A stretch of 64,000 nucleotides of DNA from positions 1 through 64,000 of the forward strand of contig NDWX01000001.1 of NCBI GenBank assembly GCA_002855745.1, given 5' to 3'. The position numbers were made by a program, and so were the translations under genes. Numbering within the stretch: the first letter of the stretch is position 1; each line of letters begins with the position of its first letter. Shown here in pieces: positions 9,359-19,480 of the stretch. Under the pieces are notes generated by a model, which was given only the letters and a program-made list of their open reading frames with translations, was not told where the DNA came from and searched no databases. Source of the stretch: Thermofilum sp. NZ13 (lineage in GTDB: Archaea > Thermoproteota > Thermoprotei > Thermofilales > Thermofilaceae).

Positions 9359-9406
9359 GCTTCTAGTTCGCGTCTGGCCGGAAAAAGTTAACTTGGGTGG
9401 GGTTGG

Positions 9407-11215
9407 CTACTGGAAGTACTTTTTCAGGAAGTGGATGGCGGGGGCTATGACCCGTACTCTCTCCTCGGTGCCCGCGACGTAGTGGCCCATGTCTGGGAGT
9501 ATGTGCGCCTCGAAGACGGCGCCGCGCTCGGAGAGGCGCTGGATGTACCTTAGGACGGGCTTGAGGGGTGTGCGCGTGTCGTTGGCTGGGTGTATTATGC
9601 AGAGGGGTGCTGTGACTTTGTCGACGTAGGTTATCGGGGACCTCTCGCGGAGGAGCTCGGTCTTGCCGTCGAAGAGGGTGTCGATGAAGCTCCTGAAGTA
9701 GGCGTCGCTCAGCGCCTTCATATCCTCCCAGTCCGCCACGCTTGCGCCCGCGACGCCGGCTTTCCAAAGGTCGGGTTGCCTGCCGAGGGCTAGTAGCGTC
9801 GAGTACCCGCCGTAGCTGTAGCCCATGATTGCCAGGCGGCTGGCCAGCCTCCTTGAGAGCGCCCACTTGCCCGCGTGGGCGATGTCGTTTAGGTCCCCGC
9901 CTCCGGGGTCTCCGATGTCGAGCCTCCTGAAGTCCTCGCCGTAGCCCGTCGAGCCCCTGTAGTTGGGGGCGACGACGTGGAAGCCTGAAGCGACGAGGGA
10001 GGCTATGAACGGGTCCCAGGAGTCCATGACCTCGCTCCAGGGCCCCCCGTGGACATACACGACGGTGGGTCCGGGCCTGGGGGCTCGGGCGTTCTCGACG
10101 ACGAACGCGGGTATGCGCCTGCCGTCGAAGGAGGGGTAGCGCGTGAAGTAGCTTCTGCCGAACTCCCTGGTGATGCTCCTCGGGAGCCTGCTCGCGACCG
10201 CCACGCGGGAGGCCCCGCTCTGCGGGTCGAGCTCGTAGACCTGCGGGGGGCTTGTGAGCGAGGAGGCGGTGAAGTAGAACTTGCCGTCGAGCTCCGCGAA
10301 CGTGGATACGACCCCCCTGGGCGTCCTCACCCTTTTGCCGTCGATGAAGAGCTGCGTCCTCCCGTCGCGCTTGGCGATCACCCAGACTCTGCCGTCGTCA
10401 AGCCAGCCGAAGTCGAGGTGCTCGACGGGGTTGAAGGCGTCGTAGTCCCTGTGGGTGAAGCTCACCCTCTGGAGGTCCCCGCTCTCGGCGTCGTAGGTGT
10501 AGAGCCTCTTCCTGCCCTCGAAGTCGCTCTCGAAGAGCAGCTTGCTGCCCCTGAGGGTGGGGTTCGTGTTCGACGAGCCGGGCTTCGGCGTGTAGACGCG
10601 CAGCTCGCGGCTCCGCGTATCCAGGATGAAGAGCTCGAAGGTGCCCGGCCTCCCCGCCAGGGTCCCGTAGCCCACGGCGTAGTCGCCGTTGAAGTCGGTC
10701 AGGAATGCCATCGTCTCGAACTTCGCAAGCTTCTCCCAGCTGCCGTCCAGGCCCACCTGGAACAGGGCGACCTCCTCCGCGGTAGCGCCGATGTAGGCCA
10801 CCCTCCCACCTTGGAACGAGATGCCCAGTACCCTGGCTGGCGGGACGTCGGCTATCTGCCTCTCCTCGGCCTCGTCTACGGCGGTGACGAAGGGGACTTG
10901 GAGCTCCTTTCCCTTGGAGACGTCGCGGGTGAAGACGACCTCCCTGCTCTCCTTCCTGGCCTGCGCGAAGCTGTGGACGGGGCCCTTGGTCAGCTTCCTC
11001 CGCTCGCCCAGCTTCGGGTCGAGGGCCCAGATGCCTGGGGTTGCGTCGAGGTTGCTGAAGAAGACGATCTTGCCGCGGGCGGCTCCGAGCAGGTAGAAGT
11101 AGGGGGCCGAGGCGATCAGCTCCACGAGCCTGGTGATTTGCGACTGGGTTTGAGGCACGGCTTTCCTGCCCGCTGCCCGGCTATTAACGTTTTCCCTGAT
11201 TTCTCCCTCACCCAT
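9407..11215 (-). CDS. S9 family peptidase (acylaminoacyl-peptidase / prolyl oligopeptidase type)
   Basis: 602 residues. The N-terminal ~350 residues form a beta-propeller with repeating strand pairs (FELFILDTRSRELRV, RLYTYDAESGDLQRVSF and others). The C-terminal alpha/beta-hydrolase domain has the oxyanion segment VVYVHGGPWSEV, nucleophile Ser in MGYSYGGYSTL, Asp in PANDTRTP and His in DMGHYVAG. Members remove acylated or short peptide units from oligopeptides. No signal peptide is seen, so it works in the cytoplasm. Its ATG overlaps the end of the upstream ABC ATPase gene by 8 nt, placing it in the peptide-import operon, where it would process imported peptides. Confidence 0.9.
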   Translation of the reverse strand: MGEGEIRENVNSRAAGRKAVPQTQSQITRLVELIASAPYFYLLGAARGKIVFFSNLDATPGIWALDPKLGERRKLTKGPVHSFAQARKESREVVFTRDVSKGKELQVPFVTAVDEAEERQIADVPPARVLGISFQGGRVAYIGATAEEVALFQVGLDGSWEKLAKFETMAFLTDFNGDYAVGYGTLAGRPGTFELFILDTRSRELRVYTPKPGSSNTNPTLRGSKLLFESDFEGRKRLYTYDAESGDLQRVSFTHRDYDAFNPVEHLDFGWLDDGRVWVIAKRDGRTQLFIDGKRVRTPRGVVSTFAELDGKFYFTASSLTSPPQVYELDPQSGASRVAVASRLPRSITREFGRSYFTRYPSFDGRRIPAFVVENARAPRPGPTVVYVHGGPWSEVMDSWDPFIASLVASGFHVVAPNYRGSTGYGEDFRRLDIGDPGGGDLNDIAHAGKWALSRRLASRLAIMGYSYGGYSTLLALGRQPDLWKAGVAGASVADWEDMKALSDAYFRSFIDTLFDGKTELLRERSPITYVDKVTAPLCIIHPANDTRTPLKPVLRYIQRLSERGAVFEAHILPDMGHYVAGTEERVRVIAPAIHFLKKYFQ

Positions 11216-12206
11216 GGAGCCAGCACCTCACGAAGTGACCTGGCTCTACCTCCACCGCGGGGGGCTCCTCGGCGCGGCACTTGTCGGTGGCGAAGGGGCA
11301 CCTCGGGTGGAAGCGGCAGCCCGACGGGATGTTGACGGGGGACGGCACCTCGCCCTTTATGGGTATCTCGCCTATCTTGTGGCGGGGGTCTGGTAGCGGG
11401 ACCGCGGATATGAGGGCCCTGGTGTAGGGGTGCATGGGGTTCGTGATGACCTGCTCCGCGGGGCCCTCCTCGACGATCTTGCCGAGGTACATTATGGCTA
11501 CTCTGTCGCAAATTATCCTGGCCACCGCGAGGTCGTGGGTGATGAAGAGGTAGCTGATGTTGAACTTCTCCCGTATCCCGAGCATCAGCTGGAGTATCTC
11601 GGCCCTGATCGACATGTCGAGCATCGAGACGGGCTCGTCGGCCACGATGAACTCAGGCCTGAGGGAGAGCGCCCTCGCAATGGCAACCCTCTGCCTCTGC
11701 CCCCCGCTTAGCTCGTGGGGGTAGCGGTACACGAATTCCTCGGGTGGGACGAGGGAGACCTCGGTGAGGAGCTTCGAGGCCGCGTCGATCCTCTCCTCCC
11801 GGGTGGTGAGCTCGCCGTGGATGTACAGGGGCTCCGTCACGATGTCGTAGATCCTCATGTGGGGGTTCAGGCTCTCGTAGGGGTCCTGGAAGATGATCTG
11901 TGCCTTCCTCCTGAACCACCCGAGCTCCTCGTCGCCGGCGCTCGTTATGTCCTCGCCCCTGAACAGTACTTTACCGCTTGTCGGCTCGATGAGCCTCAGC
12001 ACGAGCCTCCCGGTGGTCGTCTTGCCGCAGCCCGACTCCCCCACGAGGCAGAAGACCTCGCCTTTTTCGATGTGGAAGGACACGCCGTCGACGGCCCTGA
12101 GGTAGCGGGCGCCATGTCCTCTGATCACGTCCAGCAGGCCCCTGCGCAGCGGGTAGTACTTCTTCAGGTCGTAGGCCTCCAGGAGCTTATCACCCATGCG
12201 GATCAC
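11208..12206 (-). CDS. Opp/Dpp-type peptide ABC transporter ATPase (second subunit, F type)
   Basis: 332 residues. Walker [10 protein letters not shown], signature [15 protein letters not shown] and Walker [13 protein letters not shown] are present. The C-terminal oligopeptide/dipeptide extension has the Cys-rich motif [19 protein letters not shown], which in this family binds an iron-sulfur cluster or metal. The GTG start overlaps the stop of the upstream ATPase gene (GTGA type), so the pair is translationally coupled and probably forms the heterodimeric motor for the permeases encoded divergently at 15.5-17.9 kb. An in-frame ATG lies at 12197. Confidence 0.92.
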
Positions 12207-13159
12207 CCGTAGAGGTGGCAGGCCACAAAATGGCCTGGAGAGACTTCCCGGAGTTGAGGCTCCTCACTCCTGCACTTGTCGGTGGCGAAGGGGCACCTCG
12301 GGTGGAAGCGGCAGCCCCGAGGGGGGTTGAGGAGGTTGGGGGGTGAGCCGGGGATGGGCTTCAGCTGGCGTCTCTCCCCCTTTACGCTGGGGACCGACTG
12401 GAGCAGTGCGCTGGTGTATGGGTGCAGTGGCTCAAGGAGGACTTTCTCCGCCGGCCCTATCTCGACGATCTTCCCGGCGTACATGACGGCGACCTTGTCG
12501 CTAACCTGCGCGACTGCCGAGACGTCGTGCGAGATGAAAATCATCATGGACTTGGAGCTCTCGCGCAGCTCCCCGAGTAGCTTGAGTATCTGGGCTTGCA
12601 CGATGACGTCGAGGGCGGTTGTCGGCTCGTCCGCAATCACCACCTTGGGGTTTAGTGCGAGGGCCATCGCTATCAGCGCCCTCTGCCTCTGCCCCCCGCT
12701 GAGCTCGAAGGGGTAGCGGTTCGCCACCGAGGGGTCGAGGCCGACCAGGCCTAAAAGCTTCCTGATGCGCGCCATCGCCTGGTCCTTGCTCACATCCTCG
12801 TGGAGCAGTATGGCCTCTGCTATCTGGTCCCCGACCTTAAGCACCGGATTGAGGGCGTTCATCGAGCCCTGGAAGACTACCGATATCTTCTTCCACCTGA
12901 TTTCTCGCCTCAGCCTCTCCTCTGGCAGGCTGAGGATGTTCACGCCGTCGAGGACGACTTCTCCCGCCTTGATCTTGGCGTTGGAGGGTAGCACGCGCAC
13001 AAGAGTCGTGGCGAGGCTGGACTTCCCGCAGCCCGACTCCCCTACGATGCCCAGGGACTCCCCTTCGCTGAGGCTGAAGCTCACGCCGTCGACTGCCTTG
13101 ACATAGCCGCCCCCGTCGACCTCGTAGTGCATCGTGAGGTTTTTTACCTCTAAGGGCAT
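12203..13159 (-). CDS. Opp/Dpp-type peptide ABC transporter ATPase (first subunit, D type)
   Basis: 318 residues from an ATG. It has Walker A GESGCGKSS, signature [15 protein letters not shown] and Walker B VVIADEPTTALD, and the same C-terminal motif [14 protein letters not shown] as its partner. A minus-strand TATA element (CTTTAATA, ~13190-13197) lies about 30 nt upstream. It is the first gene of the leftward operon (ATPase, ATPase, S9 peptidase, methyltransferase) and is divergent from the binding-protein gene, with only ~145 nt between the starts; both transcripts may share regulation. Confidence 0.92.
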   Translation of the reverse strand: MPLEVKNLTMHYEVDGGGYVKAVDGVSFSLSEGESLGIVGESGCGKSSLATTLVRVLPSNAKIKAGEVVLDGVNILSLPEERLRREIRWKKISVVFQGSMNALNPVLKVGDQIAEAILLHEDVSKDQAMARIRKLLGLVGLDPSVANRYPFELSGGQRQRALIAMALALNPKVVIADEPTTALDVIVQAQILKLLGELRESSKSMMIFISHDVSAVAQVSDKVAVMYAGKIVEIGPAEKVLLEPLHPYTSALLQSVPSVKGERRQLKPIPGSPPNLLNPPRGCRFHPRCPFATDKCRSEEPQLREVSPGHFVACHLYG

Positions 13160-13304
13160 TACTCTCTCGAGCGGCTCCCACTATCACTATTAAAGCCTTT
13201 CTGCCCGAGCGCTGTAGAAAATCTGTACTCTTCTGCTATAGGGAAGAATGATTTTCAGCAAAAACGGAAAAACCTTTTTTAAAGATGGGTTAAGCAAGTC
13301 TCCG

Positions 13305-15455
13305 ATGCGAGGAAAACAGCTCTTAGCCTTACTGCTCCCCCTGCTCATCGCAGCGGCGTTCCTCGCACAGACCCTCACAGCGGCGCCGCCTCCTGCTGAG
13401 CAGCAGAACTGGAAGTGGGAGGCAAACGGCCCTAGAGTCGACTACCACCTCTACTCCATAATCCTCGACTACGACGCGCGGCTCACGGCGTTCAAGAAGG
13501 GGGACATCGAGACCTCCTACATACAACCCACCCGCGTCAGCGAGGTCAAGGACGACCCCAACATCTACCTTCTCTCCTACAGGACCTTCAACCTGCAGTT
13601 CCTCGGCATAAACATGAGGCAGTACCCGTGGAACTACACTGCCATCAGGAAGGCGATTGCGCACCTGATCGACAAGGACTGGATCATCACGAACGTCTTC
13701 AATGGCTTCGGCGTACCCGTGGACTCTCCTATCCCGCCAGCCTTCGGCGACTGGTCTAACCCCAACGTGCCCTCCTACACGTACAGCAAGGAGATGGCCA
13801 AGAAGGTCCTGCTCGACGCGGGGTTCAAGTACGACGCCGCGAGCAACAAGTGGTACGAGCCTAACGGCAACCCGCTCGGGGACATCGTGATCCAGATGCC
13901 GCCGCAGGATCAGGCTCCCTGGCTGTGGCAGGAGGCCTAGCACATCGCCCAGGACGCGCAGAGCATAGGCCTGCCGGTGAAGATAGAGGCGATAGAGTTC
14001 CAGGCCCTCGTCTCGCAGATATACTCGAAGACCTTTAAGTCCTTCATCCTCTACCTCGGCTGGAACAGGATACCAACGCTCGCGTACGAGCTCTTCCGCA
14101 CAGGCGGCAGCTGGAACTTCTGGGGGCTCAGCGACCCCCAGATCGACGAGCTGTTGAAGCAGTTCTACTTCACGACAGACATTCAGGCGGCTAAGGCGGC
14201 CCTCTGGAAGGCCCAGGAGAAGGTGGCGGACATCCTCCCCTACATACCGATCTACATGGGGATCGCCAACGTCGGCTTCAGGACGAACGTGGCTGGAATA
14301 GTTCTGAACAAGCCCCTCGGGGGCCAGTCATACCTGACGCTCCTCAACGTGCACCACGTCGGAGAACCCTTCGGCGGCACATACAAGGAGCCGCTCGGCT
14401 CCGACCCGCGCACGCTCAACCCCTTCACGGCAATATCCGGCGACGAGGTCGCGGTTATTGACAACGTGTACGAGTACCTCTTCATAGCCAACCCCGACCA
14501 GGTCTCCAGCGACTTGCCGTGGCTCGCGCGGAGCTGGACGATCGAGAAGGTTACGATCGGCAAATCCAACGTCACGAAGATCACGTTCCACCTGGCTGAC
14601 AACGTTACTTGGCAGGACGGCGTCAAGTTCACCGCGCGGGATGTGAACTTCACCTGGTTCTTCATCAAAACCAACAGGCCGACGCAGATGTACAGCAAGG
14701 CGTTCGAGAACCTGATAAAGACTGAGCTCCCGGACGACTACACGATTGTGGCGTACATCAACGGCACGAGCTGGGCCTACCTCTACGACCTCAACGTGCG
14801 GATCGTGCCCATGCACATCTGGGGCAACAGCTCCCTCCTCCAGTCGGCTGGAGGCTGGGAGAAGTTCGACCCGAGCAAGGTCCCACACCCCAGCGTGAAG
14901 GGCCTCACCGCGATGGTCGGCACAGGGCCCTTCATATTCGCCGACAGGAAGCTCGGCGAGTACATCCTGCTCAGGTGGAACCCCAACTACTGGAGAAGGC
15001 ACCCTGAGAAGACGATCGTGACCCAGGCTTCCATACCAAGCGCCGTGCAGGCTGGCAACCCGCTTTCAATCGCGGTAACGGTTAAGGATTACCAGGGCCA
15101 GCCTGTACCAAACGCTACTGTAACTGTCAGGCTCCTCTCAGGCGGGAGCGCAATAAAGGAGATCCAGGCTGTCCACGTCGGAGGGGGCGTTTACAACGCG
15201 ACCATCGACACAGCCGGTCTCAGCGGATCTTACAACGTCTCCGTCATGGTCAAGGCAGGCTTAGCGGGAACGGTGTTCGCTAGAAGCCTCACGGGCACTG
15301 TGACTGTCCGCTCTGCGTGGGAACAGTACCTCCCGATAATCATCCTCGCCGCAGTCATAGCTGTAGTTATCGTTGCAATCATTGCGGTCAGGAAGAGGGC
15401 CAGGAAGCCTGAGGCTCAGCAACCTTCGGAGAGCGGGGCGCAGCAGTCCTCGTAG
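13305..15455 (+). pseudogene. Family 5 peptide-binding protein, lobe order swapped and interrupted by an in-frame TAG
   Basis: ATG at 13305 is chosen because a TATA-like TTTTTTAAAG lies ~26 nt upstream and a signal peptide starts there (MRGKQLLALLLPLLIAAAFL). A TAG at 13938-13940 stops the frame after WLWQEA; the same frame continues with HIAQDAQSIGLPV to 15455. The product starts with what is normally the second half of a family 5 binding protein (LTAFKKGDIETSYI, then AIRKAIAHLIDKDWII, then GSWNFWGLSDPQIDELL). The normal first half follows (DPRTLNPF, DGVKFTARDVNFTW, GTGPFIF, WNPNYW). A ~90-residue Ig-like domain, one membrane helix and a charged tail end it. Without readthrough only ~211 residues are made. 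A frame restart could begin near 13977, but that would lack a signal peptide. Confidence 0.75.
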
Positions 15456-15483
15456 GTTTAGCTAAAATAAAGTTATTTCTCTG

Positions 15484-16479
15484 GTGGTTTCTGTGTCCGG
15501 ATTCAGCAGGTATATATTGCGTCGCGCTGCCGACAGGATAGCCGTGCTCTTCGTCGCGCTCGTCCTCCAGTTCCTTCTCCTAAGAGTCCTCCCCTACTAC
15601 GTCATGGGGATAGACCCGTCCTTCTTCTTCCTGAACCCCAACCTGACGAACGAGCAGAAGGAGCTGATTAGGAAAAGCTTCGGCCTCGACGAGCCTCTTC
15701 CCAACCAGTTTGTGAAGTACGTCCTAGCGCTCTTCACCGGTAATCTCGGCTACTCGTTCTACACCAAGAGGCCCGTCATCGAGGAGCTCATGGAAAGGCT
15801 CCCTAACACTGTGATACTGCTCGGGTCCTCGACCGTGCTGGTGATCCTGATAGGGATAGCGCTGGGGCTATACGTTGCCATGAAGAGGGGCACGAAGGTC
15901 GACACTGGAGTGATCGCTGCAGGGATACTCCTGAACTCCTTCCCCGCCTTCTTCCTGGGCTTGCTGCTGCTCCTCTTCCTCGGGTACTACATCCCCATCT
16001 TCCCGACGGCCGGGTCAGTGTCCCGCCCACCACCGAGCGACCCGCTTCTGTACGTAGCGGACTACCTGTGGCACCTCGCCCTGCCGCTGCTCACGCTCGT
16101 CACCGTGGGGGTTGGCGGGTACGCCCTCTTCATCCGGAGCTTGCTCATAACGGAGCTGGGGGAGGACTACATCGTGACCGCTAGGGCGAAGGGCGTGGAC
16201 GACAGAACGATAATGTCGAAGCACGTCATGAGGAACGTTTTGCCCCCGATAATAACCACGATTGCTCTCCAGCTCCCGGGCATAGTCTCCGGGGCTGTGA
16301 TCACGGAGACGATTTTCTCGTGGTACGGGGTCGGGAGGTGGCTCTTCGAGGCGTCGATGCAGTTCGACTACCCGGTTGTTCAGGGAGTGCTCTTCATATC
16401 CGTGGCCCTCACCGTCGTGTCGCTCTTCATAGCCGACGTGGTGATAGGCATCTTAGACCCCAGGATACGCTTGAGGTGA
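15484..16479 (+). CDS. Opp/Dpp-type peptide ABC transporter permease (B subunit)
   Basis: 331 residues from a GTG. It has about six membrane helices and the BPD_transp_1 fold: an N-terminal RYILRRAADRIAVLFVALVL helix, the YSFYTKRPVIEELMERLPNT segment typical of DppB, and the EAA loop at ELGEDYIVTARAKGVDDRTI which contacts the ATPase. It begins 28 nt after the binding-protein gene and ends overlapping the C-subunit gene, so binding protein and permeases form one transcript. Confidence 0.92.
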   Translation: MVSVSGFSRYILRRAADRIAVLFVALVLQFLLLRVLPYYVMGIDPSFFFLNPNLTNEQKELIRKSFGLDEPLPNQFVKYVLALFTGNLGYSFYTKRPVIEELMERLPNTVILLGSSTVLVILIGIALGLYVAMKRGTKVDTGVIAAGILLNSFPAFFLGLLLLLFLGYYIPIFPTAGSVSRPPPSDPLLYVADYLWHLALPLLTLVTVGVGGYALFIRSLLITELGEDYIVTARAKGVDDRTIMSKHVMRNVLPPIITTIALQLPGIVSGAVITETIFSWYGVGRWLFEASMQFDYPVVQGVLFISVALTVVSLFIADVVIGILDPRIRLR

Positions 16480-17906
16480 TCCTGTTGAAGCGGGTTAACC
16501 GATTACCCTACCTTGACACCTTTCTAGTCCTGCTCAGGAAGAGGAAGGGGCTCGTGGGCTTCTCGCTCCTGCTCTTCTTCGTGACTATAGCACTCCTAGC
16601 CGACGTGATAGCCCCTAACCCTCCGAGCGCCGTGGGCTTGGCCGACGGGTTCGCGTACCCCGCGTGGTTCAAGCTGTTCCCGCAGTACCGTGACCTGCCT
16701 GAGAACCTCCAGGTAACGCTCGGCCCGCACAGCGGCGCGCTCAGCGTCAATGGAAAAGTCAGTACCGAGTCGCCGTTGCCGAACAGCCTTCTCCTCACAC
16801 TCGGAGGCTCTGAAAGGGCCAGTGGGCTCGTCGAGCTGAAGTACACCTTCTACTACCCCTACGCGCCCCCCAAGAGGTTCGAGGCCACGATACCGTACAA
16901 CATAACTGTCTATAGCTCGAGCGGGGCCAGGGCCAGGGTGGTCCTGTCGCTGACGACGCAAGACGGGAGTACCTACACGCTCTATGACACGGGCTACCTC
17001 TCAAAGAACGTTTCCCGCGTCGATACGCCCGCGAGGTTCGACTCCAGGGACATAATGTTCAAGATCAACAACGGCTTCTCCGAGTACGAGGACGTCGGCG
17101 AGAAGGTGTTCGACCGCAAGGGGAACTACACTCTGACTCTATCGGTGTTCATGGTGAATCCCGGCAACTCCACGGTGAGGGTGCTCCTCTACCCCGTCGT
17201 CTTCAGGGTACCGGGCCTCGCGTACGGCGTGCTGGGTACTGACGCCCTCGGCTCCGACATCTTCTCAAACCTCATCCACGGGACGCGGGTATCCCTTCTG
17301 GTCGGCGTCTTAGCCTCAGTTATCTCTGTGTCGATTGGGCTTCTGGTTGGGATCGTGGCTGGCTACAAGGGAGGGTTCGTGGACCAAGCCCTCATCTTCC
17401 TCACGGATACCTTGCTCTTCATCCCCATAATCCCCCTGCTGATAGCCGTGAGCGTCTACATTGGGAAGAGCCTCTACCTCATGATCGTCCTTATCGCGCT
17501 GTTCAGCTGGATGGGTTTCGCTCGCAACACTAGGGCTCTCGTCATGTCGCTCCGCGAGAGGCTGTTCGTCGAAGCCGCCAGAGCTGCAGGCGCCGGAAAC
17601 CTGTACATAATCTTCAGGCACATCCTCCCACTGCTGACCCCAGTCGTGTACATCACGCTGGTGCTCAACATCCCCGGGGCTGTGCTCACGGAGGCAGCGC
17701 TCAGCTTCCTGAATCTCGGTGACCCGAGCGTACCGTCTTGGGGGAGGATGCTGTACAACGCCAGGTACAGTGGGGCATTCTTCAAGCTCATGTGGTGGTG
17801 GATCCTCCCACCGGGGATCATGCTCATGCTCTTATCGATGAGCTTCGTCCTCATAGGGCAGGCTCTCGATGAGGTCTTCAACCCCAAGCTGAGGGCTAGG
17901 CGATGA
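16476..17906 (+). CDS. Opp/Dpp-type permease (C subunit) with a large extracytoplasmic insert
   Basis: About 476 residues from the GTG at 16476, which overlaps the previous stop (GTGA); a TTG at 16485 is the alternative. TM1 (residues ~25-50) is followed by a ~190-residue soluble insert rich in beta strands (LSVNGKVSTESPLPNSLLLT to FRVPGLAYG), then GTDALGSDIFSNLIHGTRVS, which opens the usual DppC core with about five more helices and the EAA loop RLFVEAARAAGAGNLYIIFR. Ordinary DppC proteins are ~280-300 residues; the insert accounts for the extra length and must face outside the cell, beside the binding protein. Confidence 0.88.
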   Translation: MILLKRVNRLPYLDTFLVLLRKRKGLVGFSLLLFFVTIALLADVIAPNPPSAVGLADGFAYPAWFKLFPQYRDLPENLQVTLGPHSGALSVNGKVSTESPLPNSLLLTLGGSERASGLVELKYTFYYPYAPPKRFEATIPYNITVYSSSGARARVVLSLTTQDGSTYTLYDTGYLSKNVSRVDTPARFDSRDIMFKINNGFSEYEDVGEKVFDRKGNYTLTLSVFMVNPGNSTVRVLLYPVVFRVPGLAYGVLGTDALGSDIFSNLIHGTRVSLLVGVLASVISVSIGLLVGIVAGYKGGFVDQALIFLTDTLLFIPIIPLLIAVSVYIGKSLYLMIVLIALFSWMGFARNTRALVMSLRERLFVEAARAAGAGNLYIIFRHILPLLTPVVYITLVLNIPGAVLTEAALSFLNLGDPSVPSWGRMLYNARYSGAFFKLMWWWILPPGIMLMLLSMSFVLIGQALDEVFNPKLRARR

Positions 17907-18301
17907 AAACCCGGGAAGCTTTAACCCTCGCGCTGGTGCTCTTCTCCTCAGCCTCTCTCTTCCTGCCCTTCCTCCTGAAGGTCGGGTTCGGGGAGCAGGG
18001 CTTTGCCCCTGAATTCCTTTTAGTCCTGTTCGCCTCCTACGCCATCGGCTTCACGACGGCCCGAATCTCAAAGGCCATGGCAGTATTCCTGGCAGCGTAC
18101 GGGCTGGCGGTCATCCTGACGGTTCAGCTGATTAGGGCGCCTTTAGACGCGCTGATGGGCACGCTGAACGGGGACCTGGCTGCAATCGTTGTTGAGCGCA
18201 ACGTGCTTTTCACGAGCCTTGTTGTCGTGGCTCCTCTGAGCTTCGTCTTCCTCGTCTTTGGGGCGTACAGGGGTGAGTCTGCACGGAGGAAAGAACGCTA
18301 G
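17903..18301 (+). CDS. Small four-helix membrane protein of the peptide-transporter operon
   Basis: 132 residues from an ATG that overlaps the permease stop by 4 nt (ATGA). Four hydrophobic segments (approx. 8-25, 33-52, 55-75, 95-115) are visible with a short basic tail. No family was recognised. The tight coupling suggests it is produced with the transporter; a structural or regulatory role is inference. Confidence 0.6.
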   Translation: MKTREALTLALVLFSSASLFLPFLLKVGFGEQGFAPEFLLVLFASYAIGFTTARISKAMAVFLAAYGLAVILTVQLIRAPLDALMGTLNGDLAAIVVERNVLFTSLVVVAPLSFVFLVFGAYRGESARRKER

Positions 18302-18339
18302 TAGTCGCGCTTGAGGCGCTGGTCGCGGTTGCATCGCTA

Positions 18340-18729
18340 ATGTACGTGTACTTCGCCTACAGTAGGTGGTACCTCGAGGTTTTCTCGATTAAAACCCTGA
18401 ACGTTACTCTGGAAAACTGGACCCTTGGAACCAACCAAAGACCCTTTGTAGAGGTGCGGCTGAGAATCGAGTCTTCAAATCGCGAACCACTCCGAGTAAA
18501 CTACATCACGGTCTCCGTCCAGCAGGGATCCGAGACGCTGCGGGAAGTGACGCTAAGCTACCCCCAGGGCCTGCCGCTGGCCGGCTCGCGGGCTTTCACA
18601 GCGCGCTTGGAGCTACCGTCCTACGCTGACCCCCACTGCTTAAGCCGAGGGGGTTGCTTTTTCCGCGTTGAAGTAGGCGTTGTGAGCAGGTTTGGAATAG
18701 TGCCGCTCCAGTTCACCCTGTCGCCCTAG
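18340..18729 (+). CDS. Membrane-anchored beta-rich small protein of the peptide-transporter operon
   Basis: 129 residues from the ATG at 18340. The frame is open upstream to 18277 and encodes further hydrophobic residues (LVVALEALVAVASL), so the true start may lie earlier on a rarer codon; no ATG, GTG or TTG is available there. An N-terminal helix is followed by an extracellular-type beta domain (FVEVRLRIESSNREPLRVNY and on) resembling small WHy/immunoglobulin-like folds. It has two cysteines in HCLSRGGCFF. Function unknown; it is probably co-transcribed with the permease genes. Confidence 0.5.
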   Translation: MYVYFAYSRWYLEVFSIKTLNVTLENWTLGTNQRPFVEVRLRIESSNREPLRVNYITVSVQQGSETLREVTLSYPQGLPLAGSRAFTARLELPSYADPHCLSRGGCFFRVEVGVVSRFGIVPLQFTLSP

Positions 18730-18770
18730 GGGAAAACCCTTTATAGCGCTAGCAACGTTTTTACTCGCCT

Positions 18771-19289
18771 ATGGTCTCCCTCCTCTCAGAGTACCCTTTA
18801 ACCCGCAGGACCGCCACGCTAGAGGCAGTCTTCTCGTCGGGCCTTGCAGCAACAGCCGCAGCCCTGATGGCCTCGTCAGGCGAGCGACTGCCCTTCGCGC
18901 TGAGCTACCTCCTTTCCTTCATGGCGCCGTTCCTCGCTCTCGTCGTCCACCGAGTCCGGAAGACGGACAGGATGCTTAGAGCCGTCATGGCAGGCGGCTC
19001 TTACGAGGAGTTGCGCCGCGGCGGGGTACGAGAGCTGGTTCGAGGAGTCGCGCTGGTGTACTTGAGCTTTACCCTTCTTCTCGTCCTCCCACCGGTTATC
19101 GCGCTCGGGGCTCTGATGGGGGCTCTAACATCGAAGGGCTTTGCAGACCTCACCCACTACGTGTACGTTCGAAAGCTTGAAAGGAGCTTGGGCGTAAGGC
19201 TCGTGGTCTACGTTGAGAACGCGGGGCGTGAAGGTTGGTACAGGTGGCGGCTCACGGCAATGACGCCCCAGCCTGCTTTTCACACCTAG
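18771..19289 (+). CDS. Membrane protein of unknown function downstream of the peptide transporter
   Basis: 172 residues from an ATG. Four hydrophobic segments occur: two near residues 20-60 and two near 88-120. A charged cytoplasmic loop lies between them (HRVRKTDRMLRAVMAGGSYE), and a short soluble tail follows (VRLVVYVENAGREGW). It starts 41 nt after the previous gene. A TATA-like TTTATAGC at 18739-18746 sits ~28 nt before the ATG, so it may also have its own promoter. Family not recognised. Confidence 0.55.
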   Translation: MVSLLSEYPLTRRTATLEAVFSSGLAATAAALMASSGERLPFALSYLLSFMAPFLALVVHRVRKTDRMLRAVMAGGSYEELRRGGVRELVRGVALVYLSFTLLLVLPPVIALGALMGALTSKGFADLTHYVYVRKLERSLGVRLVVYVENAGREGWYRWRLTAMTPQPAFHT

Positions 19290-19480
19290 GCCTGTATAGA
19301 AGTAGCTAAGCATTTATGGAGGCTCAGCGCGAGATCTAGCTGGCTGTACAGAGGATCTTAAAGAAGTAATCGCGTGTTTTTACGCCGGTTGAAACCTGGT
19401 CACGAAGTTTAGCTATTGACATTTCTGACGCTGGATGCAGGTGGCTTTAGTGATTAGCGAAGTGAGAAAAAAGCTTTATT

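Follow-up and report, generated by a model that had tools for sequence, protein, structure and literature searches.

The locus at positions 13305-15455 of the window, the whole stretch of 64,000 nucleotides of Thermofilum sp. NZ13 DNA that was analysed, in all likelihood codes for a family-5 (cluster C) binding protein (SBP) of an Opp/Dpp-type ABC importer that is a natural circular permutant. Its reading frame (13248-15455, forward strand) comprises a signal peptide, a rotated family-5 body, an Ig-like domain and a membrane helix. The features of the gene are the following:

13305-13385, +: signal peptide MRGKQLLALLLPLLIAAAFLAQTLTAA, recognized by inspection from a hydrophobic N-terminus with small residues at its end; orthologs have equivalent N-termini
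13431-14309, +: canonical second part of SBP_bac_5, placed first (archaeal profile 226-513; Pfam profile 141-349)
13938-13940, +: in-frame TAG stop that splits the gene, in a column where intact homologs have a sense codon
14310-14402, +: joint of about 31 residues from the old C-terminus to the old N-terminus, delimited by the alignment and the archaeal profile
14403-15008, +: canonical first part of SBP_bac_5, placed second (archaeal profile 51-227), with DPRTLNPF ... GTGPF ... WNPNYW
15036-15257, +: Ig-like beta-sandwich between the SBP and the anchor (weak matches to MG4, Invasin_D3 and Big_1)
15327-15392, +: C-terminal transmembrane anchor with a basic tail after it, seen as a hydrophobic stretch and as helix 644-680 of the ortholog model

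The Pfam profile SBP_bac_5 (PF00496) matches the window protein in two stretches, which sum to 185 bits against a cut-off of 32.4, and profile positions 141-349 (residues 57-273) come before positions 4-181. The archaeal profile, which has 526 positions and was built from nine archaeal SBPs of canonical order, also matches first at 226-513 and then at 51-227. Homology above the PF00496 cut-off extends over both parts and places the protein in family 5. The usual linear order from N-lobe to C-lobe, which is typical of the family and stands outside the Pfam definition, is not found here, and for this reason the protein is, by its domain order, to be filed as a permuted variant of the family-5 SBPs and not as an ordinary member. 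No NCBIfam model reaches its curated cut-off for the window-type permuted SBP. The order given in the initial annotation (signal peptide, second half, first half, Ig-like domain, anchor) is borne out by both profiles, and the search against Pfam that it had proposed indeed finds the later profile part ahead of the earlier one in the chain. It had also described the two lobes as swapped. The halves are rotated, as it said, but the boundary is not that of the lobes, as the cut sits inside the N-lobe and the part placed first consists of the end of the N-lobe, the whole C-lobe and the last strands.

In the doubling test, the SBP part is joined head to tail and its single profile match is compared with that of the part alone. 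The window SBP part rises from 113.8 bits alone to 156.0 bits when doubled, in one continuous match (51-513). The outcome is bimodal among the 158 non-identical SBP_5 proteins in the fetched loci: 42 improve by 19-94 bits, and the other 116 never by more than 2.2. The gain of the window protein is not attributable to chance, because these 116 SBPs without permutation gained so little. Rotation of its chain restores one continuous family match, the rotated sequences of the window-type family mostly turn into one continuous full-length match, and the order is kept in intact homologs; as far as can be judged from sequence, the window protein is a true circular permutation. This option of the initial annotation is supported by the doubling test, by same-order orthologs, by a well-supported clade (100/98) and by a confident ortholog model. 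Neither of the outcomes that would have spoken against it, normal-order orthologs with intact genes or an alignment in canonical order, was encountered.

It is improbable that parts of two different SBP genes with differing ancestries were fused, instead of one protein being rotated. A similar possibility was raised for part of TpMglB-2 (Brautigam et al., PMC4990184), and tandem duplication followed by trimming formally passes through a two-copy fusion. However, the two parts are complementary, and hardly anything is lacking or present twice (ends at 221-238 and starts at 210-243 in 36 proteins), and the rotated sequences score as single full-length family members. No intermediate of tandem duplication, with more than one full copy per chain, was seen among the scanned proteins.

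The alignment to OppA/DppA, which had been suggested as a check, places the cut inside the N-lobe, right after the NPNYW strand; the new ends lie between this strand and the next one, which corresponds to the interval from residue 225 to residue 229 in chain A of 5u4o, and the alignment of the new N-terminal part starts near residue 208 in DppA and 210 in OppA. According to the published domain boundaries of OppA, the cut falls within domain I of the N-lobe, so that the C-lobe stays contiguous and the number of hinge crossings unchanged. The joint of about 31 residues is composed largely of the two canonical ends. In the OppA/DppA fold both old termini are located in the same domain, and a joint as short as this one therefore fits. 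The sequence thus shows that the old C-terminal strand continues via this joint into the old N-terminal strand and that the new ends have been opened in the N-lobe after the NPNYW strand.

Structure modelling was also among the checks proposed, and an intact ortholog (L037) is predicted to fold with high confidence. The AlphaFold2 model, obtained from a 30-row alignment, has a mean pLDDT of 93.1 and a pTM of 0.85 with the Ig domain and the helix included, and it shows a beta domain after the SBP, as at the Ig-like region of the window protein. The prediction is thus of a rotated chain that folds well into a binding protein carrying an Ig-like stalk and a membrane helix. Family-5 proteins are the top matches of the model in a Foldseek search against the PDB (E about 1e-19 to 1e-16). 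The alignments cover only about 280-350 of 684 residues with a target TM of about 0.5, a limit to be expected of a sequential aligner applied to a rotated chain; unlike the window protein, the solved family-5 relatives aligned with it have the canonical order. In view of the confident model and these matches, the family's bilobed three-domain fold may be retained. An AlphaFold model of a member cut at 445 (the protein of genome G192, 5-row alignment) was discarded because of its low scores (pLDDT 57, pTM 0.46), and as a result the cut sites at 362 and 445 described below are placed from sequence only.

The gene of the permuted SBP lies together with those of its cognate Opp/Dpp-type permeases and ATPases, as is characteristic of family 5, and has the following neighbours:

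9407-11215, -: S9 peptidase of the acylaminoacyl-peptidase type adjoining the transporter (APH-like_N + Peptidase_S9)
11208-12206, -: OppF-type ATPase, divergent (ABC_tran + oligo_HPY)
12203-13159, -: OppD-type ATPase, divergent (ABC_tran + oligo_HPY)
15484-16479, +: OppB-type permease (BPD_transp_1 + BPD_transp_1_N), 79% identical to the protein beside the ortholog of locus L207
16320-17906, +: OppC-type permease with a large extracytoplasmic insert (BPD_transp_1), 61% identical to the L207 partner
17903-18729, +: gene for the operon's small membrane protein, with a frameshift near 18280 (tblastn of three orthologs)

The true start of OppC is probably near the end of oppB rather than at the listed ORF start, 16320. 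Orthologous operons of several archaeal lineages preserve the set oppD-oppF-SBP-oppB-oppC together with the small membrane protein. In most operons of the window clade OppC has 478-505 amino acids, and its first helix is followed by a long extracytoplasmic insert. No link between the permutation and this insert is claimed, as one permuted operon (L047) lacks it and an operon of canonical order (L075) has it. A further small membrane ORF of the window (18771-19289) has the direction of the operon, and its homologs lie on the opposite strand in the orthologous loci L207, L116 and L040.

In this setting the permuted SBP would act as an ordinary Venus flytrap, which captures a solute extracellularly and passes it on to OppBC. 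The putative ligand would be peptide-like, and a sugar is possible; the hints from gene context are contradictory, with peptidases in the window, L042 and G192 and sugar genes flanking the operon of G018. It has been reported that the docking of DppA to DppB involves both lobes (PMC12136057), and accordingly docking could still be possible for a rotated chain whose fold is unchanged. It is very unlikely that the protein is instead a membrane-anchored sensor or adhesin within an ABC operon. The Ig-like spacer, the membrane helix and the want of a known ligand for the putative SBP would suit such a role, but the pairing with oppB, oppC, oppD and oppF is conserved across distant genomes and archaeal SBPs are generally attached to the membrane.

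The copy of the window is not one open frame, and the initial annotation made no mention of the stop. The TAG at 13938-13940 yields two ORFs, 13248-13940 and 13941-15455, and all five intact relatives aligned have a sense codon at this position. Readthrough of the TAG in this organism, with a functional product, is only a slight possibility: a single stop in an otherwise well-conserved frame would be in keeping with it, but a genome search for pyrrolysyl-tRNA synthetase gave nothing above the cut-off (best 21 bits against 178 needed), for which reason decoding as pyrrolysine was dropped, and a second lesion is present downstream, where the small membrane protein, a single ORF of about 280 amino acids in orthologous operons, is frameshifted. 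From the TAG, the lack of a synthetase above the cut-off and this frameshift it follows that the operon of the strain is probably decaying or mis-sequenced, and the SBP gene is probably an inactivated or mis-sequenced member of a family that is intact elsewhere.

Intact orthologs of the same rotated order are found in four further genomes (about 700-740 amino acids, 64-68% pairwise identity); the initial annotation had proposed looking for them in other Thermofilum genomes. Over all comparisons the identity of intact orthologs spans 64-75%. The same-order orthologs in the aligned set are 65-74% identical to the first alignment row, and the further orthologs include a truncated one (67% identical) and a more distant one (49%). 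The other option of the initial annotation, a rearranged or fused gene in the sense that two adjacent SBP genes were joined by local rearrangement or by the assembly in this one strain, is next to impossible even in a locus that is not clean, with its in-frame stop and frameshifted neighbour, and was set aside because orthologs from independent assemblies lack the stop but have precisely this order and the identity to the three closest orthologs (0.75-0.78) is alike before and after it.

Permuted family members are distributed over Thermofilales, other Thermoprotei, Bathyarchaeota, Methanomethylicota and Culexarchaeota, with distant members in the Asgard archaea (Hodarchaeota and Hermodarchaeota). 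An even draw of 398 genomes from the phylum of the window gave a match at E <= 1e-30 in 33, and most, not all, of the loci retrieved are permuted. That the permuted proteins are confined to archaea is judged from a pattern-limited scan covering 84,980 species. Two permuted SBP genes lie directly in tandem in a Hermodarchaeota locus (L051, 3-1781 and 1788-3896), and a permuted SBP of about 900 amino acids lies near a window-type permuted SBP operon (L116 / L039 and L040). The set of proteins of about 900 amino acids shares the order of the window clade, because the two align collinearly along 592 columns, to which the Ig domain belongs (hhalign E 1e-44).

The 42 permuted proteins among the 158 tested have three cut sites. 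The cut is near 225 in 36 of them, near 362 in two (L018 of G009 and L014 of G029) and near 445 in four (L121, L152, L157 and L160), with one more of the last type in G192 (L202). In a tree of the rotated sequences (65 rows) the window clade is supported as a clade (100/98). A second group with the cut at 225, which includes a paralog from contig C24 of the same genome, nests with the proteins cut at 445 (100/100), and the two cut at 362 stand apart. A tree in which all rows with the cut at 225 are forced together is rejected (AU p = 0.00014, a value to be read loosely since the group was named after the tree had been seen). This topology implies, at the level of the sequence tree, several independent permutation events and argues against a single origin of the shared cut near 225. 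The C24 paralog (C24:6232-8421, locus L006) is a second permuted family-5 SBP of the genome in an opp operon of its own; it has the same cut as the window protein, an N-terminal helix, no Ig domain and an intact frame. The same locus contains an ORF (L006 282-1745) with a C-terminal zinc-ribbon motif that by eye resembles a TnpB-type protein of IS200/IS605.

The anchors of the permuted proteins, which were located by a hydropathy scan with no dedicated predictor, sit at a new terminus. Most proteins of the window clade start with a targeting sequence and end in a hydrophobic C-terminal helix, and the tether would accordingly leave the fold at about 225; two members (L184 and L187) have no clear C-terminal helix in the scan. 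The C24-type clade has a helix at the N-terminus and none at the C-terminus, and its tether would therefore enter at about 225 too. In the cut-445 clade an N-terminal helix comes with a linker that would enter at about 450, and in L014 and L018 a hydrophobic stretch occurs at the C-terminus after about 362. The opposite anchors of two clades with the same cut suggest that permutation re-sites the membrane tether. The effect of the permutation in the window protein would be a tether that emerges at canonical position 225 or so, and not at the usual ends; perhaps the permutation moved the point at which the protein is tied to the membrane. Independent permutations would then have put tethers at new points, one of them used twice. 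We consider it possible, though short of probable, that archaeal family-5 SBPs were permuted independently at about 225 (twice), 362 and 445 with the exit point of the tether as the selected trait. In this equally tentative scheme, the tether at about 225 would be the C-terminal Ig/helix anchor in the window clade and the N-terminal helix in the C24 paralog clade, as products of unrelated events. An explanation by anchoring has been proposed for the permuted Treponema MglB-2 (Brautigam et al., PMC4990184).

Permuted SBP operons also vary at this site within the species. The complete genome G192 of the same species lacks the window operon here (window about 9362-19304) and has instead an M42 peptidase and an operon of a cut-445 permuted SBP (G192:C1:108632-117052, L202). 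A 33-bp stretch of the window (19305-19337) is identical to the left side of the G192 cassette and is directly followed by sequence matching the end of the cassette's oppF. By these matches, window 19305-19361 looks like the deletion scar of a G192-type cassette. The window operon may have been either gained in this strain or lost in G192.

The family-5 SBPs OppA, DppA, AppA and NikA (PF00496) are homologous to the window protein over the whole SBP part, with scores far exceeding the Pfam cut-off, have the same kinds of partner permeases and ATPases, and provide the top Foldseek matches. They differ in that the window protein is rotated, has its new ends in the N-lobe and is tethered at about 225 via an Ig-like domain. 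Canonical-order archaeal family-5 SBPs with a C-terminal membrane helix, among them L058, L060, L083 and L120, likewise have a targeting sequence at the N-terminus, a family-5 body and the C-terminal helix, but their anchor follows the old C-terminus (about 525) and not position 225 or so. Treponema pallidum Tp0684/MglB-2 is a circularly permuted glucose-binding protein of "Type Ic / Cluster Bc" and likewise a natural permutation of an SBP within a group of tethered proteins (PMC4990184). It has the cluster B sugar-binding fold and belongs to spirochaetes and Gram-positives, whereas the archaeal permuted SBPs are of cluster C, were cut at other sites and arose more than once; both the sequence and the Foldseek matches listed place the window protein in family 5 (cluster C) and not in cluster Bc. 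In open-access full texts no description of a naturally permuted family-5 (cluster C) SBP was found, and Treponema MglB-2 (cluster B) was the one natural SBP permutation found described there, a result that leaves room for descriptions elsewhere.

Few natural circular permutations are on record for transport binding proteins. Here the permuted order characterizes an entire archaeal clade with its Asgard members, and other cut sites arose separately. In practical terms, linear profiles match permuted SBPs piecewise, and no curated NCBIfam cut-off is passed. These proteins form a natural series of one binding protein with the tether attached at varying points of the fold, which makes the idea of permutation as an adaptation of anchoring directly testable.
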